Positions 1-44,874 of a DNA stretch of 64,000 nt are shown here, piece after piece; within the stretch, counting starts at the first letter, position 1, and each line of letters begins with the position of its first letter. The DNA lies in the NCBI GenBank assembly GCA_015680905.1, contig CM027378.1:87759501-87823500 (forward strand). Direction: 5' to 3'. The translations under genes and the position numbers were made by a program. Origin of the DNA: Coptis chinensis. Taxonomy: Eukaryota > Streptophyta > Magnoliopsida > Ranunculales > Ranunculaceae. Below the pieces are notes generated by a model, which saw only the letters and a program-made list of their open reading frames with translations, did no database searches and was not told the DNA's origin.

Positions 1-180
1 TCTAGATCTTCAGATCTAATTCACCAAATTTACTGATATTTACCGATATTTCGATATTTCATCATCTTCTCTTAAAAAAAAAAAAACCGATCTTCTCTTA
101 AAAAAAAAAAAAAAACGATCTTCACCAAAGAGTTCAAACCGATCTAACAAAAAAAAAAACCGAAATTCAAAACCGATCTA
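1..180 (+). repeat. Left terminal inverted repeat of FAR1-type Mutator-like element
   Basis: The first 75 bases, from TCTAGATCTTCAGATC through the TCATCATCTTCTCTT block, are the reverse complement of 11966-12040 and of 20102-20176. Similarity continues past the A-rich runs to the CCGATCTAACC motif near 175. Both right-hand copies are followed by the same 12 bases, so the true left tip probably lies just outside the window. TIRs of 100-500 bp are typical of Mutator-like elements, and the FAR1-type transposase inside supports that class. No target duplication can be checked here. Confidence 0.8.
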
Positions 181-897: not shown

Positions 898-1592
898 AAC
901 TCTCGCCGAGTTCGTGAATTGTCGAGTTTTGAACTCGCCGAGTTCGATGAATTTCTGTCGAGTTCTAAATTCTCGCCGAGTTCGGTGAATTACAGCCGAG
1001 TTTTGAATTTCGCCGAGTTCTAAATTACGCCGAGTTCGGTGAACTCTGTCGAGTTTTGAATTGTCGAGTTTTGAACTCGTCGAGTTCTAAATTCTGTCGA
1101 GTTCGGTGAATTTCGCCGAGTTCGGTGAACTCTGCCGAAGTTTTGAATTGCCGCGAGTTTTAAACTCTGTCGAGTTCTAAATTTCGCCGAGTTCGGTGAA
1201 TTTCGTCGAGTTTTGAATTGTCGAGTTTTGAACTCTGCCGAAGTTCGGTGAATTCTGTCGAGAGTTTTGAAGTCCGTCGAGTTCTAAATTCGCCGAGTTC
1301 GATGAATTCGTCGAGTTTTGAACTCTGTCAGAGTTCGGTGAATTCTGTCAGAGTTCGGTGAATTCTGTCAGAGTTCTAAATTCTGTCAGAGTTCTGAATT
1401 CTGTCAGAGTTCTAAATTCTGTCAGAGTTTTGAATTCTGTCAGAGTTTTGAACTCTGTCAGAGTTCTAAATTCTGTCAGAGTTCTAAATTCTGTCAGAGT
1501 TTTGAATTCTGTCAGAGTTTTGAACTCTGACAGAGTTCGGTGAAGTAGCATATTTGGTTAACTCTGTCAGAGTTTTGAACTCTGTCAGAGTT
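898..1592. repeat. 18-bp palindromic minisatellite, left block
   Basis: Tandem units of about 18 bp. The clean consensus is CTGTCAGAGTT followed by a variable TTTGAA, CTAAAT or CGGTGAA. GAACTCTGTCAGAGTTC is a palindrome apart from its centre base, so each unit can form a hairpin. Units are regular at 1330-1550. At 898-1330 the core appears as CGTCGAG or CGCCGAG instead of CTGTCAGAG, which I suspect is a sequencing artefact (see findings). The regular part is open in frames on both strands only because 18 is a multiple of 3. Confidence 0.9.
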
Positions 1593-1705
1593 TCGATGTT
1601 TAAGTTATTTACACTGTTTATGTACATTGTTATTTTTGACTGTTTAAGTTATTTATATTTTTAATTTTTTCGATTTATAGAAATGGAGACATAGACATCA
1701 ATGTT
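1593..1705 (+). repeat. Inverted copy of the FAR1-gene leader and first codons
   Basis: From CGATGTTTAAGTTATTTACAC to ATGGAGACATAGACATCAAT this is the reverse complement of about 9770-9880, the 5' leader plus the start codon of the FAR1-type gene. Only the first few codons are present and one has become a stop (GAG to TAG). Together with the adjacent minisatellite it forms an inverted counterpart of the right arm of the element. It is a fragment, not a gene. Confidence 0.75.
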
Positions 1706-2624
1706 ATGTTTATCCAAGTTCAAAATAAATAAATCATTAAATCAAACAATGAAGTTATGAACTTATTGTCTCTCCTGTTGATATCACTAGATTTTTATTT
1801 GAGGCCATATCGACTGGAGTACTGCTTGCTTGATTCAAAATAAATATATAGCTCTGTTTTGTAAATCGTTCTATCTTTCTATCTTTTTTTTATATATATA
1901 TAATGTTATGTTTGATTCAATTCTTTTGAATTCTAGACACCCATTTTGTAATACTTTCCCCGTTGATGAATTACATGACAAGATACAAAAGAGTAAAACA
2001 CAGTTTAGCTAAAAATAGATGTTGAGTTAAGTTACTATTAGAGAGAATAAATCATGGTTATTTTCATTATTGATTTTGAATTAATAATTTAGCGTAACGG
2101 AAGAAGTTATCGCGAGAGGATTTTGCATTGTAAACTCCTCGCTACTAAGACAAATTTTAAAATGAAAGTATATTATGAATGCTAACCAATTTGCTGCATT
2201 TTATTTTTTCTTCCTTTGCTTTTGGATTTTTGTTTTGTTCGGAAAAAGAAAAGAAAAAATGTTAAGGTTTGTACGCTTCATCACTTTCGTCACTAATGCT
2301 ATACTCATCTTCACATTATCTATTATAAATTGATAATTATGGCTAAGCCTTAACTCTGCCATCCAACGGACATTTCGTTTCAATATTAAGAATACATCCT
2401 CCAATCGAATTCCATACATAGGACCTACAGTTAGTAGTTGGTACTACTCAACAAACTACACAATCCTACTGTGGAAGGAGTCGGCAGGAAACAATGATTA
2501 GTTAAAATCAAGGTATTAAGATGATTGATATTTTTTTGGTAAAGAAGTAGATGGATAAGTTTAACTGCATGTTTAAGCCCATACAATTAATAATAATACA
2601 ATTCTTAGGACTTTGTTGAGGTTT
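1706..2624. other. AT-rich interior, no gene recognised
   Basis: No similarity to known coding sequence is visible; reading frames are short. It has ordinary AT-rich plant intergenic composition and separates the inverted FAR1 fragment from the next minisatellite block. Confidence 0.4.
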
Positions 2625-2732
2625 CTGTCAGAGTTCGGTGAACTCTGTCAGAGTTCGGTGAACTCTGTCAGAGTTTTGAACTCTGTCAGAGTTTTAAATT
2701 CTGTCAGAGTTCTAAATTCTGTCAGAGTTCCA
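2625..2732. repeat. 18-bp palindromic minisatellite, short block
   Basis: About six units of the CTGTCAGAGTT minisatellite in clean form, ending just before a change to a more GC-rich, organelle-like sequence. Confidence 0.85.
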
Positions 2733-2739
2733 ATGCCTT

Positions 2740-4918
2740 TCCTTTAGCGTCCATGGTTCATTGTTAGACGTAAGAGTATAATTCATTCTTTAATCTTTTC
2801 TATGATTCATTCATTATATTATCGATCATGTAAACGGAGACCTTTCTAAGGTTCCTAGATCTTATCCCACCAAGGTAAAGGTGTTCGATCAATGCCATCG
2901 CCGGTTCGATCGGTGGTAGTTTGGGGTCATTTATCCTATATATGCAAATGGAGGGAGGATCTTTACCCTTCCCCTTCGGCAGCCCATTCCTTCCTAAAGT
3001 CAGGAATAGCGGGATGAGGAAATAGTATGTAAATATAGCAACAGGAAGACTAAGGGTGGTAGAACCTACTCCTTTCTTTCTTCTCTTATGATATAATGAT
3101 CTTGCACGTATCTCACCGGCGGGTTTAAAAAAACACGCGAATTGACTCAAGTAAAAATAGCAATCGCTATACAAGAATCTGTTTCTACTTTAGGAGTCTT
3201 TGTGGCATAAAAAAAGAAGCTTGGGAAGAGAGGGAAGGGACTCGATACCAGGCAATAGGCAAAGAAGGCATAAGAGGGAGCAAACAGAGGCTTTGAAGCC
3301 GTCCTACACCTAGAAAACTACGGATGGGATGTCTTGCACCAGATTGCAAACCAACCTAATATAGATTCCGAAAAGAAACTACACTAGCCCAAGCAAACAG
3401 AGGCTTAGAAAACAATAGGGGCGAAAAGGGGCCATTACAAACAAACGGAGTCGGTGTGGAACCTATTAAGAAGCTAATGGCGTCTTGAGTTTACTAGGTT
3501 CGGAGATAAATAAGTAGGCTTCAAAGCCATAGTTGGCCAAAGAGCCCGACCAAAGAACCGCTAGAGGGAGGGCTTAAAGGAAGCGGTTTGCTTTAGTCTT
3601 GACCATCCACACTGCATGGAGGGGAATGAACCTTTAGGGGGGTCGGGGTAGGAAGGATATCGTGTTTTGATGCAGGATGTTTTCTAGTTGAATATGCATT
3701 TCATTCCGTAGAGGACTAGACTATCGATTCCGTTGAGCCAGACTTTAGAGAGAAGGGGCCTAGTGGTGTGAGCTTGGCTGTGAGCTTGAAGCGGGGTCCC
3801 TTCCATTGCTTCTTCAGTAGTGCACTTTCTCATTTCGAGAAGGCTTGAAGTGGCCTACGCTAGTACGGAGGAGGAAACTACGGATCTTTGCCGAACGGAA
3901 TGATAACAAAGGGTCCGAAAGAAAGAAGCATGAGCCACAGAGCTATCGGCTTAGGCTTGCTCACAATCCGTTAGTTTTGAGGAGTAGTTTTACTTCTAGT
4001 TTTGAGATACCTTGGCACCTTGAAGCATAGGACTTGTGAAGCTCATGGGCTGGCTTCCCGCATCCGATTGTACTCACTCGAGTCTTCCCGCCATGTAGTA
4101 CCGCCACCGGATGGACTTCATTTCCTTAAGGCGTGTCTAGTTCCCAACCCGAATCTGAAAGTGCCAAGTCGACTCCATCCGCAAGTCAAAGTGTCTAATT
4201 CAATTGCAAACCGGAGTACTAAAAGGAAGGACCTACCGGCCGGTCGCTATAGGATAGGTCGCTAGCTCAAGAAAGCGTTGGTGACCTTAGCTTAGCCGGA
4301 TAGGCAAAAGGACTTACTATGTGTGAGGCTACTTTGAGATCTTAAAAGCGAGGAGCTAGTTCAATAGTTTCGAATAGCTTCTAATCACGCTGAGAAGTAG
4401 TGGAGTGGCAAGCAAATGTTAATGAATGAGGCGATTGAGTGGGGTCGGTTAAAGTAAGCAACAAGGCATGATGAGATCCGAACCCCTACCTTGACGCATT
4501 TGAGAATCGGGCTTTTGCATTTTGTCTTCGGTTGAGGCCTATCCATCCTATGCCCCGTATGTTTTTATCAATCGAACTTCAAACTCAACCTCGATCGAGG
4601 CCTTCTTCGCCGGAAATTTGTTTGATTCATTCCCTTTGCTATTCATTCTAAACCCAACCCGGCTACAATCGTAAAACACGGCATAGCAACAAATGCTAGC
4701 TACTCCTTCCGCTTAGGAGCAGAGCTCGACATTACCTCCCACCCGGGCGTGGGGACCAAGCAAGCGATAAGACCCGATAGCTCATTCGAAGCAAGCCCTA
4801 ATTAATTGAATTATTTGATTAATTCAATCAATCAGTCTCACCTTTGTTGATATCGTCTTTCTTAGGGATACCCGAAGCAAGCAAGGCAAGGACTCTACTA
4901 AGCACTTTATGCAAGTAG
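2740..4918. other. Organelle-like (probably mitochondrial) DNA insert, first part
   Basis: Composition and word use change sharply here. GC rises well above the flanks, and the sequence has the look of plant mitochondrial intergenic DNA (AAGCAAGCAAGGCAAGG, GAAGCGGGGTCCC, many AAAGG/CTTTC words). No organelle gene, tRNA or rRNA could be identified. A 124-codon minus-strand frame (2800-3174) and two shorter plus-strand frames (3845-4030, 4002-4265) are open but match nothing I know. The insert is bounded on both sides by the 18-bp minisatellite. The mitochondrial origin is an inference from composition. Confidence 0.45.
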
Positions 4919-4920
4919 AT

Positions 4921-5278
4921 ACAGAGTTCGGTGAATTACCGCCGAGTTTTGAATTCATCGAGTTCTAAATTCGTCGAGTTCGGTGAACTCGGTCAGAGTT
5001 TTAAATTCTGTCAGAGTTTTGAACTTTGTCAGAGTTCTAAATTCTGTCAGAGTTTTGAATTCTGTCAGAGTTTTGAACTCTGTCAGAGTTTTGAACTCTG
5101 TCAGAGTTCTAAATTCTGTTAGAGTTCGGTGAATTCTGTCAGAGTTTTGAACTCTGTCAGAGTTTTAAATTCTGTCAGAGTTCGGTGAATTCTGTCAGAG
5201 TTTTGAACTCTGTCAGAGTTCGGTGAATTAACATATTCGGTGAACTCTGTCAGAGTTTTGAACTCTATTAGAGTTTTG
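4921..5278. repeat. 18-bp palindromic minisatellite, middle block
   Basis: About 20 units of the CTGTCAGAGTT minisatellite, mostly clean, with a few CG-type cores at the left end (4925-4990). It separates the two organelle-like segments. Confidence 0.88.
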
Positions 5279-5896
5279 AGCTAAAGTGGATTGATCCGGT
5301 CGACGTGGCTAAGCTGAAAAAAGAAGGGAGTCCTATATATTCTATACTGTATTGATGGCTCATTTTGGCTCACTTCCTCGATATGGGATCGAAAATGTTA
5401 AGTACTCGATTTCTTTGAGAGGTAGTGGGTTAGTCAGTAAAAGCAATTCGACCTCTTATAGGGGATGGGGTTTAAAGCGACTTCTCTAGAGGGGCACCCG
5501 AAGCAAGATTCTAGGGCTTAAGTGGGGATTTTGGTCTAGCAATTAGAGATAGAGAAAAAGTTGAGCCAACCAAGGCTTTGGTAAGAAACCGATGTATGCT
5601 TAACACACCCAAGTCAAGGGCTACGAGTGGGGATTTCTAGGGAGATTCAAGCCGTATGCGCGACTAGCTTTAGTCGGCATAAGAACAAACAACTAAATGG
5701 GTATCCTTAGCCTTTTGTTAGCTTCGGTGGCCCGGAGTCTTCTACGGGGGCATCTCTTCTTTATAGCTTTATAGATTATGAATTCGATTCGAACACACAA
5801 GAAAAAAGCGTTGATGGAACCATGCAAACAGTGCTCATTAACTCACTAGCGTCCCAATCAAATCATTCCAAAGTACTTCCCTTATGCGCCAAGTGT
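5279..5896. other. Organelle-like DNA insert, second part
   Basis: Same composition as 2740-4918 (for example GAAGCAAGATTCTAGGGC and CTAGAGGGGCACCCGAAGC). No gene is recognisable. It ends where the hairpin-motif array and the long direct duplication begin. Confidence 0.4.
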
Positions 5897-5905
5897 CGTT
5901 AAAAA

Positions 5906-6335
5906 TGGTGTGTCTGTTTGGACTTTGTCCCAAACGGCATGGCGGGACCGTTTGGACTTTGTCCAAAACGGCATGGCCACACCGTTTGGCCTTAGTTCCA
6001 ACGGTGTGGCGGGGCCGTTTTGGACAAAGTCCAAACGGTTCCGCCATGCCGCTTGGTACAAAGTCCAAACAGATTACACCATTTTTTTACTGGAGTTCAA
6101 AGTCGAAACGGCATGGCCACACCGTTTTTGGCCTTAATTCCAAACGGTGTGGCCATGCCGCTTTGAGACTAAGGCTAACGGTGCGGCCATGTCGTTTGAC
6201 TTTGAACTTGCAAAAATAGAAGTCTGTTTGGACTTTGTCCAAAACGGCATGGCCACACCGTTTGGTACTAAGGCCAAACGGTGTGGCCATGCCGTTTGGG
6301 ACAAAGTCCAAACAGACACGCCATTTTTTTTATCC
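5906..6335. repeat. Hairpin-motif array, short version
   Basis: Alternating inverted units built on CCAAACGG-TGTGGCCATG-CCGTTTGG and its reverse complement, spaced by GGACTTTGTCC or GGACAAAGTCC. The outer arms CCAAACGG/CCGTTTGG pair perfectly and the centre holds TGGCCA, so each unit can fold. It is not coding, although several frames stay open. The same array is much longer at 12053-14520, and a diverged relative lies at 58600-59060. Confidence 0.88.
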
Positions 6336-7436
6336 AAATTCAAATCCAAACGATATCGCCGTACTAAGTCCATATCGTTGATGTTGATGTTTTGGCAATT
6401 TATCAGTTTGGTTTGTTTGTGTTGATGTTCATTGATGATCATATGAGTTGAGGTAAATTTGTTGTTGACAAACGCTGGCATTATAATCGGGTGGTATAGT
6501 ATCGCATCAATACATCATATCAACTTACGGAACAAAATTGCAAGTGGGCACGCTTGTTGTAACAACAAGAACATTTATAATAAGCACATCAAAATGCTTT
6601 ATGCAATCCCAAATATTATTGTTCATTACAAACATTTAAGCACATCGAATGAATTAGCAACAAGTATAGCCTCCGCTGCACCTAGCTTTGGCTTGTTCAA
6701 GCCTTTCACTCCAAGTTTCAAATCTCTTCAACTTCTCCACCTTCTTTCAACACTTCGCTTCTTCTCTCTCTCTTTTCACGACAATTTCTCCCGTTATAGC
6801 TAATAACTCAATTTTGGCGCACTTTCTTGAATGGTGCATAGTCAAGGTGGCGTTGATACTGTGGCATCTTGTGGAACTCAGAGCGATGAGAAACATAACC
6901 CTTGAGAGAATGATGAAAAGATCAAGATCGATTGATGCAAAGTCGAGGGGTGGAAACGAGCGGATGAGAAGGCAAGATTTTTTTACCTAAAGCAAAGCTT
7001 TGCCTCCGTGATTCTCCATTTCTCCTTGAGCCATACTTCTCTTTTCTACAATATCAATGAGATTAGAACTCAGTCTAATTAAACTCCCCAAATGTAACCT
7101 AAACCAGCAATATTAAAATTTGAAAATAAAAAAGGAGAAAGAAGTTATCAAAAAAAGCACCGGTCTATCATTATGATGTTTCATATCTAGAGCCTAACAG
7201 ACAACATTAGATACTATCCAATGGACATAATGATGCAATAGAACACAACCCTCGACACAGTTCAACTTAACAACACTTGATAAAACTCTAACAAGGCTGC
7301 CATATCTAAACCACTATTAACAAGTCCAGACATCAATGAAGTCCATGACGCGCAGATAAAAATATCATTAGAACTAGTGAACATTTAGAATCAAAGAGTT
7401 TTGAATAAATCTATACTTACAATCGACGATTACGTA
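6336..7436. other. 3' flank of FAR1-type gene copy 1, possible second gene remnant
   Basis: Unique sequence between the array and the C-terminal exon of the transposase gene, duplicated at 14475-15585. In the second copy a 102-codon minus-strand frame (14861-15169) rich in Lys/Glu near its end (EKKREKKRMLKEGGEVEE) is open; here the equivalent is interrupted. It could be a small second gene of the element or a captured exon. I do not recognise it. Confidence 0.35.
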
Positions 7437-9783
7437 TTATTTTTTTTCCCGGACAATTTCTCGAGTCATGGTTAGCAATCTGTCCACATCTGTGACACTT
7501 TCTTCCCGAATTGTTTAGGGCTATCTCTTTGGGGATTTCCATCTATCCGCTTTCTTCTTCCCCTCCCTTTTGTTTGAGAAATGTTGGGATTCAAAATCAA
7601 TAGCTGAAATAAAGACCGAATTAAAATAAATATTTATATCAAATTAAACACCAATTAAACACTAAATTTATATCAAATTAAACATTCAAATAAAAACTCA
7701 CGGATGTATTAACCGAAGGTATCGGGAGGCTCTCGCAATCGAGGCTCTCAAGAATCGAGGCTTTGCAACCGGAGGCTCTCAGCGAATCGGAGGCTCTGCA
7801 ACTTCGCGTCTCCTTTGTAGGAAGTCTCATTAAACTTTGAAATTTCAATAGCCATTTCACCAATCTTTTCAATAAAATATGAATAACCCTCAAAAGTATC
7901 GACGATCGATCGTAAAAGCACTTGAGAAGCAACCTTGATAGAATGAGCCACTCTCAAAGGTTCATTTGAGACATTCCCCACCACAAATCCAATTATCAAA
8001 CTCCGCTCTATAAGTGTTAGACTTTTGCATCCACCGCGTCAATCTAAAATGGTTTGGAATCTCTTCAATCTCAGATCGCGATAAAACCTTTAAGATATGA
8101 CCACAAAGCAAACCCATAAACCGAAAGTACTTGCATTCGCAGCCCTCCTCTAAGGTTCCTCTATCGAAACTCACTCTCCAAACTGAATTCTTCAATGGGT
8201 CTCTCCATTTCACCATGTAGCTTCCGGTTCCATACATCAATTTGTTCCCCATCAATTTTGTACTCCATCTTTGCCTTTTCTAGTTGCTCTTTAAATTTAT
8301 TGAATATTGAGATCGTTATAGACCTTCGCGGCATGCATAAGGATGAAAGCATCGTTAGGCACAATCCGTGAACTATGCTCGCGCGTCGTAATCTCTCTCT
8401 TTCCTAGCAAGCAAAGTCAAAGACTTCTCATTACCATGTACAAACCGCATAAAGCGTGAGTCGTCCGAATTGACAAACCGGTCATAATGAGCATTCATCG
8501 ATTCACTTCGACCCGATTCGTGTGCATACCAAAAAAAAGGTGCCACCGAGATAACAAGGAACCCATTTCTCCCGCGATTGAATATATCTCATCGAACCAA
8601 GGATTTTCGACAACTCATACTTCTCAATGATTGTACACCATCTTCTCTCAAAATCAACAATCCTATACGAAAAAGAAATAGTGTTCTTCAACTTCGGTTA
8701 CCAATGTCTCAAATTTGGTAAATGACATCTTCTCTTGAATTTCTGCATAATATGCCAAAGACGATAACGATGACGAGTATTAGGAAACACTTTGGCAATG
8801 GCTCAGCTGTCATCCATCGCTTCTATCCCGGTCGGTTGATGATTGCGGTTGGCGCCACGACCACCCATGGCCGCAAGCCGGGCTTTAAATAGCCATATGA
8901 ATGTATCTTACGTCTCATCAAGCAACAATGCGAAACCAAACCGAATCGACCGATAATGATGGTTGACTCGATAAAAGGGGCAAAAGGCATGGAATATGCA
9001 TTGGTGCGATATGTGGTATCAAAAGACACAACATCTCCGAAATATTCATATCGGCATCGAGACCTCCCATGAACCCGAGAAAAAGTTCACCGCATCCCAT
9101 TTTCATCTAAATCAATAAGCGTAATAGAACCGGGATCCTCGGACTCTTACGCATAAAATATTGCGGCAGACGCGGTTGCATCACCTTCTTTAGGCATCTT
9201 TACGGTCAAACCATAATAATGGTTCCAACAATCTTTCTGTGTAAACCCAACTTCCTCTCCATGGAAAACGGATGCCACTTTCCCAACGATAAACCTATCA
9301 CTAAATATCTCGGTCAAACGCACTTCACCGCCTCGCATATGTTTGTTAGTTTTCATGCAAATTCTTCTTGATGGGGTCACCGGACCGTGACTATGGTCAT
9401 TATGAGCAACGCTGACCTCATATATCTCTTCATGCATTCTTTTCTTAATAACAAATTCTAGCTTGGCAACCACACCGGATAGTTGATGTATTTCTTGATC
9501 GGACTTCATCTCTCTTAGGAGTCTTAACCCCTTCACGTGAGCAAACCAGTAAACAACCACTAACCAAATCCACCTGATTTTGTTGCTTAGAAGTCGTCCG
9601 AACACGAGTCTCAAATCCCTCTTGTTGACCATACTCTTTGTAATAAGTCTTTGCCTCGTCAATACTTGTAAAAGTCATTCCTATATAAGGAGCAGCTAAT
9701 GTTTGCGTGCCTTGAACAGGGGCTTTAGTAGACGAAGACCCAACTACGTCTTCTTCGATATTGATTGATGTCTCTGTCTCCAT
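7437..9783 (-). pseudogene. FAR1/FHY3-type MULE transposase gene, copy 1 (frameshifted)
   Basis: The gene reads from ATG at 9783 (METETSINIEEDV). Order of domains: FAR1-type DNA-binding domain (9783 to about 9165; GMTFTSIDEAKTYYKEYG, then RCGCQARI), MULE transposase core (about 9106-8820; FDTTYRTNAYSMPFAPF, then the Gly-rich PTAIINR region), and SWIM zinc finger (8255-7962; CECKYFRFMGLLCGH, a C-x-C-xn-C-x-H pattern). An intron with GTGAGT at 7701 and CAG before 7603 follows. The last exon encodes a CCHC knuckle (CHRCGQIANHDSRNC, about 7440-7500). Such proteins either mobilise MULEs or, when domesticated, act as nuclear transcription factors. Between TIRs and with a twin copy, this one is the transposase of its element. 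Several frameshifts break it, some of them probably miscalled bases. Confidence 0.85.
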
Positions 9784-9869
9784 TTCTATAAATCGAAAAA
9801 ATTAAAAATATAAATAACTTAAACAGTCAAAAATCCCAATGTACATAAACAGTGTAAATAACTTAAACA

Positions 9870-11612
9870 TCGAAACTCGGCGAGTTAACCAAATATGCTA
9901 CTTCAACTCGTCCGAGTTCAAAACTCCTGACAGAGTTCACCGAATATGCTAGTTCACGAACTCGACAGAGTTCAAAACTTCGACAAAGTTCACCGAATAT
10001 GTTAGTTCACCGAACTCGGCGAGAATCGGCATGAAGAATATATGAGTTCAAAACTTCGGCGGCGTCAAAGTTCACCGATATATGATACTTCACGAACTCG
10101 GCGAGTTCAAAACTCGACTGACGAGAATCGGCATGAAGAATACGACGAGTTCACGAACTCGAAAGAGTTTTGAACTCGGCAAATCTGACGAGTTCAAAAC
10201 CCGGACAGAGTTCACGAATATGCTACTTCAACGAACTCGACAGAGTTCAAAACTCGAAAAGAGTTCAAAACTCGATAGAGTTCACGAACTCGACGAGTTC
10301 AAAACTCGGACGAATCACGACATGAAGAATACGGCGAGTTCACCTAACTCGGCGAGAATCTGACGAGTTCAAAACTTTGATAGAGTTCACGAACTTCGGC
10401 GAGTTCAAAACTCGATAGAATACGGCATGAAGAATACGACGAGAGTTCACGAACTCGAAAGAGTTTTGAACTCGGCGTAATCACGACGAGTTCAAAACTT
10501 CGGCAGAGTTCACCGAATATGCTACTTCAATCGAACTTCTCGACAGAGTTCAAAACTCGAAAGAGTTCAAAACTCGAAAGAGTTCAAAACTCGATAGAGT
10601 TCACGAACTCCGACGAGTTCAAAACTCGATAGAATACGGCATGAAGAATACGACGAGTTCACGAACTCTGAAAGAGTTTTGAACTCGGCGAGAATCTGAC
10701 GAGTTCAAAACTTCGGCGAGTTCACCGAATATGCTACTTCAACGAACTCGACAGAGTTCAAAACTCGAAAAGAGTTCAAAACTTTGATAGAGTTCACGAA
10801 CTCGGCGAGTTCAAAACTCGATAGAATACGGCATGAAGAATACGGACGAGTTCACGAACTCGAAAAGAGTTTTGAACTCGGCCGAATCACGACGAGTTCA
10901 AAACTCGGCAAGTTCACCGAATATGCTACTTCAATGAACTCGACAGAGTTCAAAACTCTGAAAGAGTTCAAAACTTTGATAGAGTTCATCAACTCCGGCG
11001 AGTTCAAAACTCGGCGAATAATCGGGCATGAAGAATACGACGAGTTCACGAACTCGAAAGAGTTTTGAACTCGACGAATCAATGACGAGTTCAAAACCCC
11101 TCGCGAGTTCACCGAATATGCTACTTCAACGAACTCGGCGAGTTCACCGAATATGCTACTTGGAAACTCGACAGAGTTCAAAACTCGAAAGAGTTCAAAA
11201 CTCGATAGAGTTCACGAACTTCGACGAGTTCAAAACTCTGACGAGAATCGACATGAAGAATACGACGAGTTCACGAACTCCGCGAATCTACGGCATGAAG
11301 AATACGACGAGTTCACGAACTTCGACGAGTTTCATCGGCGAGAATCACGACGAGTTCAAAACTTCGACGAGTTCACCGAACTCGGCGAGTTTCACCGAAC
11401 TTCGACGAGTTTCATCGGCGAGAATCTGACGAGTTCAAAACTCGACGAGTTCACCGAACTTCGGCGAGTTTCATCCGACGAAATCTGACGAGTTCAAAAC
11501 TCTGACAGAGTTCACCGAACTCGGCGAGTTCAAAACTCGACGAAATCTGGCATGAAGAATACTGACGAGTTCACGAACTCGGCCAGAATCTGACGAGTCC
11601 ACCGAAATTGTC
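9870..11612. repeat. 18-bp minisatellite, right block of copy 1
   Basis: Long array in the orientation opposite to 898-1592 (GAACTCTGACAGAGTTC type). It is interspersed with a longer higher-order unit that contains CATGAAGAATACG and ACCGAATATGCTACTTCAA. Almost every core is written CGACGAG, CGGCGAG or CGACAGAG rather than CTGACAGAG. It lies directly upstream of the FAR1-type start codon, as does its counterpart in copy 2. Confidence 0.88.
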
Positions 11613-11875
11613 GCCGTCTTTAAACGAGGGTATTAATCATAACTATAATCATAGCAACCTAAATTAAATCAAAATTCAAGGTTTTATGGTATAATGACAA
11701 TCCAAGTGTCAATTAAAGCATTATTAATAGGCAAGCACCATAACCAAATGTGGACTATAGTTGAAGTGCCAAATGATACCTGTCAGAGAAGAAGAAACCA
11801 AGTGAAGAAACCTAATTGCCAAATGATGAGAAGAAGAAGCCGAGAGAGCCGAGCCGTCGAGAGAGAGAAATTTAA
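11613..11875. other. Right subterminal unique segment
   Basis: A 260-bp stretch between minisatellite and TIR, repeated at 19752-20010. It contains a short plus-strand open frame that runs into the TIR (11694-11942). Its purine-rich AGAGAAGAAG composition does not look like a conserved protein. Confidence 0.5.
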
Positions 11876-12052
11876 TTTCGGTTTTTTTTTTTGGTTAGAT
11901 CGGTTTGAACTCTTTGGTGAAGATCGGTTTTTTTTTTTTTAAGAGAAGATCGGTTTTTTTTTTTTTTAAGAGAAGATGATGAAATATCGAAATATCGGTA
12001 AATATCAGTAAATTTGGTGAATTAGATCTGAAGATCTAGAGGGCTCGATCGG
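11876..12052 (-). repeat. Right terminal inverted repeat, copy 1
   Basis: Reverse complement of the window's first 170-180 bases, ending GATCTGAAGATCTAGA at 12040. The next 12 bases (GGGCTCGATCGG) also follow the second right end at 20177-20188, so they belong to the element or to the duplicated unit. After 12052 the sequence passes directly into the hairpin array. Confidence 0.85.
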
Positions 12053-14520
12053 TTGGGCATGCCGTTTGGTACAAAGTCCAAACAGACACACCATTTTTTT
12101 TGCAAGTTCAAAGTCCAAACGGCATGGCCACACCGTTTGTCCTTAGTACCAAACGGTGTGGCCATGCCGTTTGAGACTAAGGCCAAACGGTCTGGCCATG
12201 TCGTTTGGACTTTGAACTTGCAAAAAAAAAAGGCGTGTCTGTTTGGACTTTGTCCCAAACGGCATGGCCAGACCGTTTGGACTTTGTCCCAAACGGCATG
12301 GCCACACCGTTTGGTACTAAGGACAAACGCGGTGTAATGCCGTTTGGGACAAAGTCCAAACGGTGTGGCCATGCCGTTTGGACTTTGAACTTGCAAAAAA
12401 TGGTTTGTCGTTTGGACTTGAACTTTAAGTCAAAATGGCGTGTCTGTTTGGACTTGAACTTCGCGTCAAAATGGCGCGTCTGTTTGGACTTGAACTTGCG
12501 TCATGGCGTGTCGTTAATACATTTTGGACTTGAACTTGCATTAGAAAACGGCATGGCGTGTCTGTTTGGACTTGAACTTGTGTCAAAAATGGCGTGTCTG
12601 TTTGGACTTGAACTTCGTCAAAATGGGCGTAATACGCTTGGACTTCGAACTTGCGTCAAAATGGCGTGGTTCCGTTTGGACTTCAACTTCGCGTCAAAAA
12701 TGGCGTGTCTGTTTGGACTTCGAACTTGCGTCATGGCGTGTCGCGTTCCGCATTTGGACTTGAACTTGCATTAAAAACGCATGGCGTGTCTGTTTGGACT
12801 TCGAACTTGTGTCAAAAATGGCGTGGTTGTTTGGACTTGAACTTAAGTCAAAAATGGCGTAATCTGTTTGGACTTCGAACTTGCGTCAAAAATGGCGTGT
12901 CTGTTTGGACTTCGAACTTGCGTCATGGCGTGTCGTGTCTGTTTGGACTTCGAACTTGCATTAGAAAACGGCATGGCGTTAATCTGTTTGGACTTCGAAC
13001 TTCGCGTCAAAATGGCGTGTCTGTTTTGGACTTCAACTTGCGTCAAAAATGGCGTGTTCGTTTGGACTTCAACTTGCGTCAAAATGGCGTGTCGTTTGGA
13101 CTTTGTCCCCAAAAACGGCATGGCGGCACCGTTTGGACTTTGTCAACGGCATAACCACCGTTTTACCTTAGTTCCAAACGGTGTGGCCATGCCGTTTGGT
13201 ACAAAGTCAAACGGTGCGCCATGCCGTTTGGTACAAAATCAACGGACACACCATTTTTGCAAAGTTCAAAGTCAAACGGCATATTACACCGTTGTCCTTA
13301 GTACCAAAACGGTGTGGCCATGCCGTTGAACTAAGGCCAAACGGTCCGCCATGTCGTTTGGACTTTGAACTTGCAAAAAAAAGGCGTGTTTGGGACTTTG
13401 TCCCCAACGGCATGGCCAGACCGTTTGGACTTTGTACCAAACGGCATGGCCACACCGTTTGGTACTAAGGACAAACGGTGTGGCCATGCCGTTTGGGACA
13501 AAGTCCAAACGGTGTGGCCATGCCGTTTGGACTTTGAACTTGCAAAAAAAATGGTTTGTCTGTTTGGACTTCGAACTTGCGTCAAAAATGGCGTGTCTGT
13601 TTGGACTTCGAACTTGCGTCAAAAATGGCGTGTCTGTTTGGACTTCGAACTTGCGTCAAAAATGGCGTGTCTGTTTGGACTTCGAACTTGCGTCATGGCG
13701 TGTCGTGTCTGTTTGGACTTCGAACTTGCATTAGAAAACGGCATGGCGTGTCTGTTTGGACTTCGAACTTGCGTCAAAAATGGCGTGTCTGTTTGGACTT
13801 CGAACTTGCGTCAAAAATGGCGTGTCTGTTTGGACTTCGAACTTGCGTCAAAAATGGCGTGTCTGTTTGGACTTCGAACTTGCGTCAAAAATGGCGTGTC
13901 TGTTTGGACTTGAACTTGCGTCATGGCGTGTGGGTTCCGCGTTTGGACTTCGAACTTGCATTAGAAAACGGCATGGCGTGTCTGTTTGGACTTCGAACTT
14001 GCGTCAAAAATGGCGTGTCTGTTTGGACTTCGAACTTGCGTTAAAAATGGTGTGTCTGTTTGGACTTTGTCCCAAACGGCATGGCCAGACCGTTTGGACT
14101 TTGTCCAAAACGGCATGGCCACACCGTTTAACCTTAGTTCAAACGGTGTGGCGGGCCGTTTTGGACAAAGTCCAAACGGTTCGCCATGCCGCTTGGTACA
14201 AAGTCCAAACAGACACACCATTTTTTTGCAAGTTCAAAGTCCAAACGGCATGGCCACACCGTTTGGCCTTAATTCCAAACGGTGTGGCCATGCCGTTTGA
14301 GACTAAGGCCCAACGGTCTGGCCATGTCGTTTGGACTTTGAACTTGCAAAAAAATAGAGTGTCTGTTTGGACTTTGTCCAAAACGGCATGGCCACACCGT
14401 TTGGTACTAAGGCCAAACGGTGTGGCCATGCCGTTTGGGACAAAGTCCAAACAGACACGCCATTTTTTTTATCCAAATTCAAATCCAAACGATATCGCCG
14501 TACTAAGTCCATATCGTTGA
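12053..14520. repeat. Expanded hairpin and 37-bp minisatellite array
   Basis: Starts and ends with the CCAAACGG/CCGTTTGG hairpin units seen at 5906-6335. Between about 12400 and 14045 it is dominated by a 37-bp tandem unit (TGTTTGGACTTCGAACTTGC plus GTCAAAAATGGCG). Units start at 13561, 13598 and 13635, so the period is exactly 37. Every few units it is broken by GTCATGGCGTGTCG and by GCATTAGAAAACGGCATGG. It replaces the left half that copy 1 of the element has, so the second element copy lacks a left TIR. Confidence 0.88.
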
Positions 14521-15585
14521 TGTTGATGTTTTGGCAATTTATCAGTTTGGTTTGTTTGTGTTGATGTTCATTGATGATCATATGAGTTGAGGTAAATTTG
14601 TTGTTGACAAACGTTGGCATTATATTGGTGGTATAGTATCGCATCAATACATCATATCAACTTACGGAACAAAATTGCAAGTGGCACGCCTTTGTAAACA
14701 ACAAAGATAACATTTATAATAAGCACATCAAAATGCTTTATGCAATCCCAAATATTATTGTTACGTATTACAACATTTAAGCACATCGGAATGAATTAGC
14801 AACAAGTATAGCACGCTTTTGCACCTAGCTTTGGCTTGTTCAAGCCTTTCACTCCAAGTTTCAGCTCTCTTCAACTTCTCCACCTTCTTTCAACATACGC
14901 TTCTTCTCTCTTTTCTTTTCGACAATTTCTCCCGTTATAGCTAATAACTCAATTTTGGCGCACTTTCTTGAATGGTGCATAGTCAAGGTGGCGGTGATCT
15001 TGTGGCATCTTGTGGAACTATGCGATAAGAAACATAACCGCAGAGAATGATGAAAAAGAGCCAAGATCGATTGATGCAAAGTCGAGGGGCGAAACGAAAC
15101 GGATGAGAAGGCGATATTTTTACCTAAAGCAAAGCTTTGCCTCCGATTCTCCATTTCTCCTTGAGCCATACTTCTCTTTTCTACAATATCAATGAGATTA
15201 GAACTTCGGTCTAATTAAACTCCCCAAATGTAACCTAAACCAAAGGCAATATTAAAATTTGAAAATAAAAAGGAGAAAGAAGTTATCAAAAAAGCACCGG
15301 TCTATCATTATGATGTTTCATATCTAGAGCCTAACGGACAACATTAGATACTATCCAATGGACATAATGATGCAATAGAACACAACCCTCGACCGCAGTT
15401 CAACTTAACAACACTTGATAAAACTCTAACAAGGCTGCCATATCTAAACCACTATTAACAAGTCCGGACATCAATGAAGTCCATGGCCAGCGGATAAAAA
15501 TATCATTAGAACTAGTGAACATTTAGAATCAAAGAGTTTTGAATAAATCTATACTTACAATCGGCCGGTCATTATTATTTTTTTC
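14521..15585. other. 3' flank of FAR1-type gene copy 2
   Basis: Duplicate of 6390-7436. A minus-strand frame at 14861-15169 (102 codons, starting MAQGEMENRRQSF, basic-acidic tail) is open here but not in copy 1. No known domain is seen. Confidence 0.35.
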
Positions 15586-17919
15586 TCCTGACAATTTCTC
15601 GAGTCATGGTTAGCAATCATCCACATCACTGACACTTTTCTTCCCGAATTGTTTAGGGCTATCTCTTTGGGGATTTCCATCTATCCGCTTTCTTCTTCCC
15701 CTCCCTTTTGTTTGAGAAATGTTGGGATTCAAAATCAATAGCTGAAATAAAGACCGAATTAAAATAAATATTTATATCAAATTAAACACCGAATTAAACA
15801 CTAAATTTATATCAAATTAAACATTCAAATAAAAAAAACCTGTGATGTATTAACCGAAGGTATCGAAGGCTCTCGCAACCGGAGGCTCTGCAACTCGAGG
15901 CTTTGCAACCTGGAGGGCTCGCAATCGAGGCTCTGCAACTTCTCGTCTCCTTTGTAGGAAGTCTCATTAAACTTTGAAATTTCAATAGCCATTTCACCAA
16001 TCTTTTCAATAAAATATGAATAACCCTCAAAAGTATCGCGATCGTCGTAAGCCACTTGAGAAGCAACCTTGATAGAATGAGCCACTCTCAAAGGTTCATT
16101 TGAGACATTCCCGACCACAAATCCAGTATCAAACTCCGCTCTATAAGTGTTAGACTTTTGCATCCACCGCGTCAATCTAAAATGGTTTGGAATCTCTTCA
16201 ATCTCGTATCGCATAAAAACCTTTAAGATATGACCACAAAGCAAACCCATAAACTGAAAGTACTTGCATTCGCAGTCTCCCTCTAAGGTTCCTCTATCGA
16301 AACTCACTCTCCAAACTGAATTCTTCAGCGGGTCTCTCCATTTCACCATGTAGCTTCCGGTTCCATACCTGTCAATTTGTTCCCCATCAATTTTGTACTC
16401 CATCTTTGCCTTTTCTAGTTGCTCTTTAAATTTATTGAATATTGAGATCGTATAGACCTTCGCGGCATGCATAAGGATGAAAGCATCGTTAGGCACAATC
16501 CGTGAACTATGCTTTCGGTCGCGGTAATCGGAATCTCTTTCTTTCCTAGCAAGCAAAGTCAAAGACTTCTCATTACCATGTACAAACTGCATAAAGTAGT
16601 GAGTCGTCGAATTGACAAACTGGTCATAATGAGCATTCATCGATTCACTTTTCCCCCGATCGTGTGCATACCGACAAAAAGGTGCCAGAGATAACAAGGA
16701 ACCCATTTCTCCCGCATTGAATATATCTCTCAACCAAGGATTTTCGGACAACTCATACTTCTCAATGATTGTACACCATCTTCTCTCAAAATCAACAATC
16801 CTATCTGAAAAAGAAATAGTGTTCTTCAACTTCGGTTACCAATGTCTCAAATTTGGTAAATGACATCTTCTCTTGGAATTTCTGCATAATATGCCAAAGG
16901 CGATAACGATGGCGAGTATTAGGAAACACTTTGGCAATGGTGCTGTCATCGCTCTATCCCGGTCGATGATTGCGGTTGGCGCCACGACCACCCATGGTGC
17001 AAGCCGGGCTTTAAATAGCCATATGAATGTATCTTACGTCTCATCAAGCAACAATGCGCCAAACCAAACTGAATCGACCGATAATGATGGTTGACTCGAT
17101 AAAAGGGGCAAAAGGCATGGAATATGCATTGATTGCGATATGTGGTATCAAAAGACCACAACATCTCCGAAATATTCATCTTGGCATCGAGACCTCCCAT
17201 GAACCCGTAAAAAAGTTCACCGCATCCCATTTTCATCTAAATCAATAAGCGTAATAGAACCGGGATCCTCGGCTCTCTTACGATAAAATATTGCGACGGC
17301 GGCGGTTGCATCACCTTCTTTAGGCATCTTTTCTGGTCAAACCATAATAATGGTTCCAACAATCTTTACGTGTAAACCCAACTTCCTCTCCATGGAAAAC
17401 AGGATGCCACTTTCCCAACCGGATAAACTGTTATCACTAAATATCTCGGTCAAGCACCCATTTGCTTCGGGCATATGTTTGTTAGTTTTCATGCAAATTC
17501 TCTTCGATGGGGTCACCGGACCGTGACTATGGTCATTATGAGCAACAACCGACCTCATATATCTCTTCATGCATTCTTTTTTTCTTATCTGAAATTCTAG
17601 CTTGGCAACCACACGGATAGTTGATGTATTTCTTGATCGGACTTCATCTCTCTTAGGAGTCTTAACCCTTCCGTGAGCAAACCAAGAAACAACCACTAAC
17701 CAAATCCACCTGATTTTGTTGCTTAGAAGTCGTCCGAACACACGTCTCTCAAATCCTCTTGTTGACCATACTCTTTGTAATAAGTCTTTGCCTCGTCAAT
17801 ACTTGTAAAAGTCATTCCTATATAAGGAAGCGACTAATGTTTGCGTGCCTTGAGCGAGGGCTTTAGTAGACGAAGACCAACTCGTCTTCTTCGATATTGA
17901 TTGATGTCTCTGTCTCCAT
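15586..17919 (-). pseudogene. FAR1/FHY3-type MULE transposase gene, copy 2
   Basis: Start codon at 17919. The N-terminal FAR1 domain is frameshifted, with fragments at 17741-17337. The transposase start motif is in pieces at 17236-16946. From 16829 to 15825 a 334-codon stretch is uninterrupted: the C-terminal part of the transposase domain, then SWIM finger CECKYFQFMGLLCGH, then a Leu/Gln/Ser-rich tail made of short repeats (GAGGCTCTGCAA type). The C-terminal CCHC exon follows at about 15590-15735. This copy has fewer breaks than copy 1 in the same gene, which suggests part of the damage is base-call error. FAR1-family proteins are usually 500-850 residues, and the combined exons would fit that. 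Confidence 0.85.
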
Positions 17920-18009
17920 TTCTATAAATCGAAAAAATTAAAAATATAAATAACTTAAACAGTCAAAAATCCCAATGTACATAAACAGTGTAAATAACTT
18001 AAACATCGA

Positions 18010-19745
18010 AACTCTGACAGAGTTAACCAAATATGCTACTTCACGAACTCGTCCGAGTTCAAAACTCGACGAGTTCACCGAATATGCTAGTTCACGAACT
18101 CCGACAGAGTTCAAAACTTCGACAAAGTTCACGAATATGTTAGTTCACCGAACTCCACGGCGAATCTGGCATGAAGAATATGACGAGTTCAAAACTTCGG
18201 CGGCGTCAAAGTTCACGAATATGATACTTCACCGAACTCCGACGAGTTCAAAACTCTGACGAGAATCACGCATGAAGAATACGGCGAGTTCACGAACTCG
18301 AAAGAGTTTTGAACTCGCCGCATCAATCGACGAGTTCAAAACCCTGACAGAGTTCACCGAATATGCTACTTCAACGAACTCTGACAGAGTTCAAAACTCT
18401 GAAAGAGTTCAAAACTCGATAGAGTTCACGAACTCTGACAGAGTTCAAAACTCGACGTATCGACATGAAGAATATACGACCGAGTTCACGAACTCCTGGC
18501 GAATCTGACGAGTTCAAAACTTTGATAGAGTTCACGAACTCGGCGAGTTCAAAACTTCGATAGAATACGGCATGAAGAATACGGCGAGTTCACCGAACTC
18601 GAAAGAGTTTTGAACTCGGCGAAAATACGACGAGTTCAAAACTCGGCGAGTTCACCGAATATGCTACTTCAATCGAACTCGGCGAGTTCAAAACTCGAAA
18701 GAGTTCAAAACTCGAAAAGAGTTCAAAACTCGATAGAGTTCACGAACTCGACGAGTTCAAAACTCGATAGAATACGGCATGAAGAATACGGCCGAGTTCA
18801 CCGAACTCACGAAAGAGTTTTGAACTTCGACGTAATCGACGAGTTCAAAACTCTCGGCAGTTCACCGAATATGCTACTTCAACGAACTCGACAGAGTTCA
18901 AAACTCTGAAAAGAGTTCAAAACTTTGATAGAGTTCACCGAACTTCGGCGAGTTCAAAACTCGATAGAATACGGCATGAAGAATACGCGAGTTCACCGAA
19001 CTCGAAAGAGTTTTGAACTCGGCGACGAATCACGACGAGTTCAAAACTCGGCGAGTTCACCGAATATGCTACTTCAATGAACTCGACAGAGTTCAAAACT
19101 TCGAAAGAGTTCAAAACTTTGATAGAGTTCACCGAACTTCGGCGAGTTCAAAACTCGGCGAGAATCACGGCATGAAGAATACGGCCAGAGTTCACGAACT
19201 CGAAAAGAGTTTTGAACTCGACGAAATCGGCGAGTTCAAAACCCCGCGAGTTCACCGAATATGCTACTTCAACTAACTCGGCGAGTTCACCGAATATGCT
19301 ACTTCAACGAACTCGACAGAGTTCAAAACTCGAAAAGAGTTCAAAACTCGATAGAGTTCACCGAACTCGACGAGTTCAAAACTCGACGTATCATCGACAT
19401 GAAGAATACGACGAGTTCACGAACTCGGCGAATCGGCATGAAGAATCTGACGAGTTCACGAACTTCGGCGAGTTTCATCGGCGAATCGACGAGTTCAAAA
19501 CTTCGACGAGTTCACCGAACTTCGACAGAGTTCACCAACTCGGCGAGTTTCATCGGCGAGATCACGGACGAGTTCAAAACTTCGACAGAGTTCACCAACT
19601 TCGGCGAGTTTCATCCCGACGAATCATGACGAGTTCAAAACTCGACGAGTTCACCGAACTCGGCGAGTTCAAAACTCCCGACGAATCACGAAAAGAATCT
19701 GACGAGTTCACCCGAACTCGGCCGAATCATGACGAGTCCACCGAA
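18010..19745. repeat. 18-bp minisatellite, right block of copy 2
   Basis: Counterpart of 9870-11612. The first unit after the gene leader reads CTCTGACAGAGTT here (18012) where copy 1 reads CTCGGCGAGTT (9876). Elsewhere the two copies disagree mainly at such CTG/CAG sites. Confidence 0.88.
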
Positions 19746-37116: not shown

Positions 37117-37300
37117 AATGATTCCAACTTTTGTGTTATTCTATTGAAAAAGTAAGTATCTATCATTTCCCTTACTCTTATCTTAATTTACTTGTTCTGT
37201 ATTAATTTAACTATATCTATGTCAATCCCAGGTTAAAGTTGCTGCTGTGGGGCAGTTTGATAACGAAATGGCCAGCTTCCGTCGTTATAGAGATGAGAAC
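37117..37300 (+). pseudogene. Antisense gene: intron and start of coiled-coil exon (left copy)
   Basis: GTAAGTATC at 37152 and ATCCCAG before 37231 bound a 79-bp intron. The exon after it starts VKVAAVGQFDNEMASFRRYR and is cut at about 37300. A diverged copy of the whole segment, with the exon continuing, lies at 47793-47980. Confidence 0.7.
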
Positions 37301-38870
37301 CATATCCAAATTACACCTCTCCAAGGCATTGGCATCAAAACATGTGTCCTCCTCCTCCTCCTCCGAATTAACATTTTCCACAACCCTATCTCCAGGCAAT
37401 CTCCACACCTTCTTAATACATTCCGTATAAGCAATTGCATTTGCATGCAACTTCAACATAGTCCGCTCAGTTTTTGGTTTCTCACCATAAGACATCATAA
37501 TCTTAGTAATCAGAACATGAAAGGGTGCGGTACTCACTCCAACTCCTCGAATCATAGTTAACAAGAAGTCAATTATACAAAAATCATACCTTTGTTGCTG
37601 TAATATCCAGAGTACGTGCAGACAGTTAAGACTGATGTCACTGAACTTCTCTTTCCCAATGACATTCTTACCAACCCACTGAGATCTGATCGGTGGTTGG
37701 TTCTCGAGGCGCATCGGACCACAATCGCGACTTGGTATTATCTTCGTCCTTCCAACACAGTGTCTCTTATCAACGTCTCTACCGTCTCTTATCAACGTCT
37801 CTTATCAACGTCTCTTCCGTCGTTATAGAGATGAGAACCATATCCAAATTACACCTCTCCAAGGCATTGGCATCAAAACATGTGTCCTCCTCCTCCTCCT
37901 CCGAATTAACATTTTCCACAACCCTATCTCCAGGCAATCTCCACACCTTCTTAATACATTCCGTATAAGCAATTGCATTTGCATGCAACTTCAACATAGT
38001 CCGCTCAGTTTTTGGTTTCTCACCATAAGACATCATAATCTTAGTAATCAGAACATGAAAGGGTGCGGTACTCACTCCAACTCCTCGAATCATAGTTAAC
38101 AAGAAGTCAATTATACAAAAATCATACCTTTGTTCTTTGTAATATCCGTGAATGCGTCGCGGCGATTAAGGCGATGTCACCAACTTCTCTTTCCCAATGA
38201 CATTCTTACTAACCCACTGAGATACAGTCAGCTGGTTGGTTCTCAGAGGCGACTGTCGGACACAATGCGACTTGGTATTATACTGTCCTTCCAACACAGT
38301 GTCTCTTATCAACGTCTCTACCGTCTCTTATCAACGTCTCTTATCAACGTCTCTTCCGTCGTTATAGAGATGAGAACCATATCCAAATTACACCTCTCCA
38401 AGGCATTGGCATCAAAACATGTGTCCTCCTCCTCCTCCTCCGAATTAACATTTTCCACAACCCTATCTCCAGGCAATCTCCACACCTTCTTAATACATTC
38501 CGTATAAGCAATTGCATTTGCATGCAACTTCAACATAGTCCGCTCAGTTTTTGGTTTCTCACCATAAGACATCATAATCTTAGTAATCGTAACATGAAAA
38601 AGGTGCGGTACTCACTCCAACTCCTCGAATCATAGTTAACAAGAAGTCAATTATACAAAAATCATACCTTTGTTCTTTGTAATATCCGTGCGTACGCGGG
38701 GCCGCTTAAGACTTATGTCACCAACTTCTCTTTCCCAATGACATTCTTACCAACCCAATCGAGATACTGATCGGTGGTTGGTTCTCGAGGCGACGGCTGT
38801 CGGACACAATCGACTTGGTATTATATTGTCCTTCCAACACACGGTTGTCTCTTATCAACGCCTCTCCCCC
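37276..38870. repeat. 538-bp tandem triplication
   Basis: CTTCCGTCGTTATAGAGATG starts each unit at 37276, 37814 and 38352. This 26-bp start is the end of the antisense-gene exon, so the unit spans the junction between that exon and the inserted gene fragment. The third unit runs into the unduplicated part at about 38860. Confidence 0.88.
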
Positions 38871-39170
38871 ATACCGGGATTCCTGCGTGGTTGCTACAAG
38901 CTGGGATTTTGGCATAATGTTTAGAACATGAGTCAACATCGAAGCACACACTTCTTTCTTCGCGCCATTCAACTTTACAAAAATCTTCCTACCCTCGATT
39001 TCCCGCTTCTTATAAAAATTCAAAACCAAATCCTCATGGTAAAAATCATTCTACGTATACCACAACCTCTTCCAACTCCTACGTTTCATCTCGTCATCGT
39101 AAAACAGCGCAAAATGATCCGACTTGAAAAATTGTTCTGGGAGGATTTTGAGTTTTTGGGCCATTGAGTA
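37301..39170 (-). pseudogene. Fragment of a putative plant transposon-protein gene, internally triplicated
   Basis: Minus-strand frames read VLNFYKKREIEGRKIFVKLN then KEVCASMLTHVLNIMPKS (39029-38880), and after a gap GKEKFSDISLNCLHVLWILQ with FHVLITKIMMSYGEKPKTE and an acidic EEEEED run. The layout resembles the plant transposon-protein domain Pfam PF20167 (Transposase_32-like), but I place it there only tentatively. The part from the FSDIS segment to the acidic run is present three times: 37276, 37814 and 38352 mark starts of 538-bp units. Each unit ends in short TCTTATCAACG repeats. Frameshifts separate the parts. Confidence 0.5.
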
Positions 39171-41420: not shown

Positions 41421-41577
41421 CAGGAATAATATCAGAAGCTAAATAATTAACAATGTCAGCATACCATGGTGCAGAAAAAATAGCATACAGATGCTCATCA
41501 GGAAAAAAGTCAGGTATGGACTCAGAATCACTATCATCGTCATTTGTTAGTCTAGATAAGTGGTTGGCAACTACATT

Positions 41578-41960
41578 TTAGACCTCTCTTTTGTCCTTAA
41601 TTTCTAAGGTGAACTCTTGTAGGAGAAGAATCCACCAGATCAATCTCTGCTTAGCATCCATCTTTGCGAGAAGGTACCTAAGGGTTGCAGGGTCCATGTA
41701 AACTAAAGTCTTAGTACCAACCAAATAAGGACAAAATTTATTTAAAGTATAAACGACAGCTAAGAATTCTTTTTCCATAGTTGTATAATTCCTTTGAGCA
41801 TCGTTTAAAGTTTTACTAGCATAATAAATGACAGTGGACTTATTATCTACTTTCTGACCTAACACAGCACCAACGACATAATCACTAGCATCACACATGA
41901 GTTCGAAAGGTTTAGACCAATCGGGAGGCTATATAATGGGTGCAGATATTAAAGCGGCTT
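41578..41960 (-). pseudogene. Athila RNase H domain
   Basis: MCDASDYVVGAVLGQ with the first acidic residue, then YASKTLNDAQRNYTTMEKE and YMDPATLRYLLAKMD. In gypsy RNase H the usual motif near here is TDH; PATL replaces the expected H-x-x-L context, so activity is doubtful. It continues the RT frame after stops near 42040-41960 and ends at a stop at 41578. Confidence 0.8.
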
Positions 41961-42040
41961 TTAAAGTTTCAAAAGCCTGTTTACAGTTATATTGAAATAA
42001 AAAATGGCATCCTTTAAAAGCAAATTAGTTAAAGGCCTAG

Positions 42041-44173: not shown

Positions 44174-44311
44174 TCTGCCAGAATGGAGAGTGGTGATGGC
44201 ATTTAGCTCACCTACGTTTCCATTTTCATTACTAGTATTATCGTTTACCTCAAAGGCTGTGCTTGGTGTTTTAGGGTTAGGTATCGCTTAACCTGAAAAC
44301 ACACATTTAGG

Positions 44312-44815: not shown

Positions 44816-44874
44816 GATGGGGATAGGCTTTTGTTGAATAGAAATAGCTTCTACCCTTTTAGTGAGAGATTCGA

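Follow-up and report, generated by a model that had tools for sequence, protein, structure and literature searches.

Methylation-linked base-calling errors are known as a kind from bacteria. In one Klebsiella benchmark, Dcm sites (CCWGG) accounted for ca. 70% of the consensus errors obtained with default ONT models, and the authors proposed that other taxa may be affected as the Enterobacteriaceae are by Dcm (PMC6591954). In Listeria, modification-mediated errors at GCWGC and GCTGG were reported together with Modpolish (PMC10687267). Nanopore accuracy was found to be lower in plants with general models, and plant methylation was named as a likely cause (PMC9749173). At telomeres, errors of nanopore repeat calling were described and the similar current profiles of the repeats were suggested as their cause (PMC9414165). 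CHG methylation acts in transposon silencing (PMC8514461).

A 64,000-nucleotide stretch of Coptis chinensis DNA (contig C2, bases 87759501–87823500; hereafter the window) carries CG variants of CTG and CAG (together CWG) that resemble these cases in part. As with Dcm, the errors would involve 5-methylcytosine (5mC) in a CWG core, judged to be missing from training data, and survive into the consensus; unlike the Dcm errors, which are bacterial and tied to one five-base motif, they fall at plant CHG with many different flanks, and the output tends to CG. With Listeria they share the CWG core and motif-specific systematic errors that outlast polishing, but that bacterial case was shown by whole-genome amplification, whereas methylation is here what we infer. 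In the plant study, the passages concerned give no motif, and the term CHG is absent from its main text. As at telomeres, a base caller would rewrite one tandem repeat into another, although the telomere errors were not put down to methylation. In a search of largely open-access literature, no description surfaced of CHG misread as CG in a plant assembly. With high confidence, the CG variants are interpreted as consensus errors of a native long-read assembly, most probably a nanopore one, at methylated CHG. A sequence-only reading of the window had proposed base-calling errors, and that interpretation is supported by CHG enrichment, by conserved 16S triplets and by reading frames. Much of the apparent repeat decay in the window is very probably not real.

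Repeats and reading frames of the window

The features analysed are collected in Table 1. The host element (window 1–20188), a putative Mutator-like element with a FAR1-type transposase, has inverted ends of ca. 170 bp and contains a 6.2-kb direct duplication, 5897–12052 versus 14039–20188, whose copies are spaced 8.1 kb apart and align with 93% identity. The strings quoted in the sequence-only reading were found in place, CTCGGCGAGTT at 9876 in copy 1 and CTCTGACAGAGTT at 18012 in copy 2.

Table 1. Features of the window with their positions, strands and triplet counts. Pattern matches in the arrays include overlaps and are not strict unit counts.
Feature	Position	Strand	Remarks
Left terminal inverted repeat, putative Mutator-like element	1..171	+	Inverted match to 12040-11871 (96.5%) and 20176-20010 (95.9%)
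Corrupted 18-bp tandem array (block A)	898..1328	+	9 CWG, 46 CG; 23 forms in 28 pattern matches
Clean block of the 18-bp array (block B), CTGTCAGAG	1321..1600	+	29 CWG, 4 CG; 4 forms in 18 pattern matches
Cargo segment	2900..4880		Differences from three further copies fall chiefly at CAG and at triplets containing CG
Short corrupted array block	4915..4995	+	1 CWG, 8 CG; 4 pattern matches
Clean array block	4990..5280	+	25 CWG, 5 CG
Duplicate copy 1, transposase region, corrupted	6222..9870	-	35 CWG, 140 CG (copy L022: 73, 92)
Corrupted array, copy 1	9870..11600		25 CWG, 170 CG
Duplicate copy 2, corrupted, sites partly differing from copy 1	14361..18010	-	36 CWG, 134 CG
336-aa open frame with SWIM zinc finger, open in copy 2	15825..16835	-	Pfam PF04434, E 3e-6
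Corrupted array, copy 2	18005..19745		24 CWG, 175 CG
538-bp triplication, copies differing almost only near CWG/CG	37276..38892		CWG 12, 11, 4
Ty3-like element; gag, RT and integrase pieces open over long stretches	40177..45657	-	Pfam

Triplet changes between the two copies of the duplicate were tabulated over 3,560 columns starting at 6222 and 14361, the poorly aligning arrays being omitted. The 312 differing columns formed 92 clusters separated by long identical runs. Change rates between the copies were highest for CAG (20/28, 0.71) and CTG (23/37, 0.62) and lowest for TAG (1/75, 0.01) and CTA (2/74, 0.03), a clear enrichment at CHG, on which the sequence-only reading had made itself dependent. 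The eight CG-containing triplets changed at rates of 0.32–0.58, and many of them are products of a CWG change. CG was present in 68 of the 92 clusters and CWG in 40, as compared with means of 31.5 and 10.9 and maxima of 46 and 21, respectively, in 500 draws of random placement. One or the other was found in 79 clusters, and seven of the remaining 13 were run-length changes. Such changes are a usual residue of nanopore sequencing, and those of the duplicate fit nanopore reads; a comparison of A/T runs, in which 6 of 10 differed, was not leaned on, since the count takes in three flanking bases. Divergence of the copies amounted to 15.5% near CWG/CG versus 1.1% away from them, a contrast that is partly built in and inflated, since the partition uses CG made by the errors themselves. 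With this proviso, the figures bear out the suspicion that much repeat divergence is unreal.

The triplication behaved likewise: copies 1 and 2 differed at 42 of 200 columns near CWG/CG and at 1 of 293 elsewhere, and the other two pairs at 42/205 versus 2/294 and 35/204 versus 3/294. CCAGAG and CAGACAG of copy 1 do correspond, as had been pointed out, to CCGTG and CGCGGCG of copy 2; copy 3 displays other CG-rich forms.

In the tandem arrays, the contrast between clean and corrupted blocks described in the sequence-only reading was reproduced by the triplet counts of blocks B and A. Using a stricter pattern, CA preceded GAGTT in 14/14 units of block B and in none of the 22 units of block A. CCG was affected in a similar manner, with 29 occurrences of TTCACCGAA against 28 of TTCACGAA in the two corrupted arrays, whereas blocks B, C and E, which are clean, showed nothing but the CCG/CGG form (9/9). 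Base-calling errors intrinsic to CWG words or to palindromic arrays, arising independently of methylation, would also generate differences at these words, and the arrays are indeed palindromic enough for ARAGORN to call tRNAs in them. Yet an identical array unit occurs clean in one block and, a few bases away in the next, corrupted, and a stretch that is clean in one copy may be corrupted in a second: CWG/CG counts in the bin 1400–1650 were 22/2 in the window and 5/12, 21/3 and 15/8 in three copies elsewhere in the genome (L030, L031 and L032). Uneven polishing or depth could mimic such contrasts. Methylation-independent errors are rated as very unlikely, though the least improbable of the alternatives considered. 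The ARAGORN calls, one tRNA-Pyl and two tRNA-Gln at 1341–1430, 2642–2732 and 5112–5203, inside clean CTGTCAGAG arrays, are almost surely false matches to palindromic repeats. An Rfam scan of the window gave no match at gathering scores.

A Pfam search of three pieces of the element matched the SWIM zinc finger (PF04434) and gave no FAR1 or MULE match. Copy 1 differs from the open SWIM frame of copy 2 by 11 frame-changing differences, all of which touch CWG/CG; in the four that contain CWG, it is the open copy that has the CWG each time. Over the whole duplicate outside the arrays, 38 of 45 frame-changing differences touched CWG/CG. These observations agree with the earlier claim that many frameshifts are unreal.

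Transposon and Ty3 copies across the genome

The genome (935.6 Mb in 116 contigs) was searched for further copies. The transposon set comprised 22 copies, namely copy 1 of the window, the next 20 of 40 scored matches, drawn from 477 first-look candidates, and copy 2 of the window. Per copy, CWG ranged from 30 to 73, CG from 92 to 140 and TAG plus CTA from 76 to 88. CWG and CG counts were inversely related (rho −0.84, p 1e-6), as compared with rho 0.28 (p 0.20) for the TAG plus CTA control, and open frames were longer in CWG-richer copies (rho 0.50, p 0.018). Where a test counts each cell, or each direction of a pair, as an independent observation, its p value overstates the significance. Of the 660 CTG cells in the set, 57% were intact, and of the 572 CAG cells 58%, as against 92–96% for CTA, TAG, CAA, TTG, CAT and ATG, 81–92% for CTT, AAG, CCA, TGG, GTG, CAC, GAG and CTC, and 57–75% for CG-containing triplets. 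CG forms arose at 0.29 per cell for CWG, and at 0.002–0.083 for eight other triplet pairs. The concentration of errors at a candidate methylation motif, shown in the duplicate, was thus repeated across the 22 copies.

CTG was replaced by CCG in 72 cells, CG in 23, TCG in 16, ACG in 16, TTG in 16 and CTA in 7, and CAG by CGG in 58, CG in 7 and CAA in 40. The sequence-only reading had described the change as a loss or shift of the middle base. Middle-base loss does occur (CG, 23 and 7 cells) and the usual result is that CG arises, but outside the arrays substitution, to CCG or CGG, is the commonest change. Error-prone repair after DEMETER/ROS1-type excision of 5mC, altering CHG bases in the plant itself, was considered in this context. 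Such repair would be CHG-specific and would leave small indels, and loss of an outer base is indeed seen in a small number of cells (AG 13, CA 6 and TG 5 among the listed outcomes). However, excision removes the C itself, so that loss or change of an outer base would be expected, whereas middle-base loss (CG, 47 cells) and substitution (CCG 96, CGG 71) dominate; clean units also adjoin corrupted ones within a single array. This origin is therefore regarded as extremely improbable.

Real mutation was weighed as a second alternative, according to which old transposon copies decayed naturally and methylation raised the mutation of CHG and CG. Both are natural hot spots, and the transposon copies do carry some deamination. 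Natural decay of methylated cytosines, however, consists mainly of C-to-T and G-to-A changes at CG and CHG, deamination of CWG yielding TTG, CTA, TAG or CAA. Changed CWG cells of the transposon instead comprised 428 CG forms versus 78 deaminations, 316 of 822 being neither (an alternative sorting gave 428, 91 and 262 of 781, respectively), which upholds the argument that deamination cannot produce these changes. Likewise, CTG became CCG in 72 of 660 cells while CTA became CCA in 10 of 880. Divergence over the 231 pairs of copies was 22.0% near CWG/CG and 3.4% elsewhere, the compared pair being left out when defining this partition.

The unaffected control, showing natural decay, was a Ty3 family of the window (42100–43300, with 10 of 39 other scored matches), ca. 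9% diverged, in which CWG was retained or lost through ordinary deamination (55 deaminations versus 7 CG forms) and in which divergence over 55 pairs was 12.6% near CWG/CG and 6.6% elsewhere. The two spectra stand in sharp contrast, and mutation in the plant is accordingly held to be very unlikely as the source of the transposon changes. That this family keeps its CWG or loses it by deamination also speaks against errors intrinsic to the CWG word. By contrast, a second Ty3 family, which came up at an arbitrarily picked locus (L047) and was analysed in nine copies (L047 and 8 of 39 other scored matches), showed 47 CG forms versus 7 deaminations. Since one Ty3 family has a natural spectrum and another is affected, the CG effect is neither universal nor limited to one element. 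Frame length in the affected family tended to rise with CWG without reaching significance (rho 0.61, p 0.079, n = 9).

Intactness differed widely among individual CWG sites in the alignment of 6222–9870: those in AAACAGACAC and ATAGCTGAAAT were intact in 22/22 copies and others in 3–5 of 22, among them TCTGGTCA (3/22). Flanking context therefore matters as well, which agrees with methylation-independent errors, and these differences may reflect either a methylation preference or the context seen by the base caller. A four-gamete test of errors against inherited variants gave a weak difference (0.73 versus 0.61).

The segment 2900–4880, which we take to resemble plant mitochondrial DNA, is also found ca. 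10 kb away from the transposase region at no fewer than four further sites (C1 at 40.67 Mb, C62, C8 at 95.59 Mb and C4 at 33.03 Mb), and therefore seems to be cargo copied along with the transposon. In comparison with three of its 11 long other copies (L030–L032), the window triplets were changed at 27/39 CAG, 6/18 CTG and 4/132 CTA.

Conserved 16S triplets and the direction of the change

An external reference was provided by small-subunit rRNA genes of bacterial type, for which a search (8254 first-look candidates) gave at least five scored copies. One lies on C26, an organelle-like contig of 281,685 bp that is probably mitochondrial; four, which by their sequence appear to be of plastid type, lie inside chromosomes C2, C8, C7 and C6 (L067, L068, L069 and L070), with mutual identities of 75–78%. 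They were compared at 25 CWG triplets common to at least 17 of 18 cyanobacterial 16S genes, taken from at least 80 loci, and the tabulation covered 14 triplet groups, a part of the 64 triplets.

Only 19 of 100 conserved CWG cells were intact in the four chromosomal copies. Among the 13 other groups, nine were 69–83% intact and the lower ones, CCA/TGG (58%), CCG/CGG (57%), CG-containing triplets (55%) and GTA/TAC (46%), all remained far above CWG. The 81 lost cells comprised 48 CG forms, 12 deaminations and 21 others, an outcome that, like the spectrum of the transposon, argues against real mutation. Since triplets conserved in the reference are lost in the chromosomal copies, the direction is fixed where it can be checked: CTG and CAG are the true sequence, and the CG readings are wrong. 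The SWIM frame, which is open in copy 2, points the same way.

By contrast to the chromosomal copies, the one on the organelle-like contig keeps 18 of the 25 conserved CWG, even though it is the less conserved in 11 of the 13 other groups. Errors intrinsic to CWG words would be expected on both kinds of contig, and this difference thus favours methylation-linked errors. Organelle DNA, however, has a far higher read depth, which confounds the contrast.

Proposed origin of the CG variants and its consequences

Taken over the families, the error sites are CTG and CAG and, less so, CCG, while CHH triplets are much less affected, and the commonest outputs (CCG, CGG, CG, TCG and ACG) contain CG. The effect is strong in the DNA transposon family, in one Ty3 family and in the chromosomal plastid-type 16S copies, and is not seen in the other Ty3 family or on the organelle-like contig. 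A preference for CHG over CHH is a signature of symmetric plant methylation. From this specificity, from the difference between chromosomal and organelle-like DNA and from the published precedents, we infer both methylation and a nanopore platform. The CHG cytosines at the error sites would carry 5mC, which the base-calling network may have met in training mainly preceding G; the shifted current would then be decoded as a word containing CG, the middle base being dropped, replaced or moved, and subsequent polishing would have cleared the errors in some places only.

Several observations stand against this account. Besides the site-to-site differences in intactness, the weak four-gamete result, the modest CTG change in the cargo segment and the non-significant frame trend given above, blocks B, C and E are clean next to corrupted ones, a Ty3 family that would be expected to be methylated has a natural spectrum, and at least a third of the CWG cells that changed belong neither to the CG forms nor to the deaminations. 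Uneven polishing is a likely cause of the clean blocks and of the clean Ty3 family, although a direct test, relating CWG count to the distance from the nearest copy in the 22 transposon copies, was null (rho −0.12, p 0.59). Escape of near-identical repeats from short-read polishing gained no support from this correlation, and in age the two Ty3 families hardly differ, divergence away from CWG/CG being 5.6% in the affected and 6.6% in the clean family.

By our arithmetic, apparent divergence would be inflated about threefold in the transposon family and about eightfold in the window pair. In affected stretches, genes would seem frameshifted, plastid insertions scrambled and CpG content overstated, so that insertion dating, pseudogene calls and studies of CpG depletion would go wrong there. 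More tentatively, the assembly could be regarded as an unintended methylome, in which the fraction of CG for CWG at unpolished places records CHG methylation site by site, the emission of CG for a 5mC not followed by G being general in CpG-trained base callers; this extension is possible but rather doubtful. If it were true, silenced repeats could be mined from the FASTA files of public nanopore plant assemblies by their CG/CWG ratio, and transposon ages and pseudogene calls in nanopore-based plant assemblies could be corrected.

The CG/CWG ratio itself can be computed without reads and makes an inexpensive screen. It was raised (2.3–10) in 17 of the 20 1-kb bins at the start of the window versus 4 of the remaining 44, and the other three of those 20 are the bins holding the clean array blocks. 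Among 15 arbitrarily chosen stretches, two (L047 and L054) had a ratio above 2 over most of their length. A second tandem array of the window, at 12000–14300 with copies 37 bp apart, was inspected by eye: it repeats GTGTCTGTTTGG, which keeps CTG, and nearby words vary at CG.
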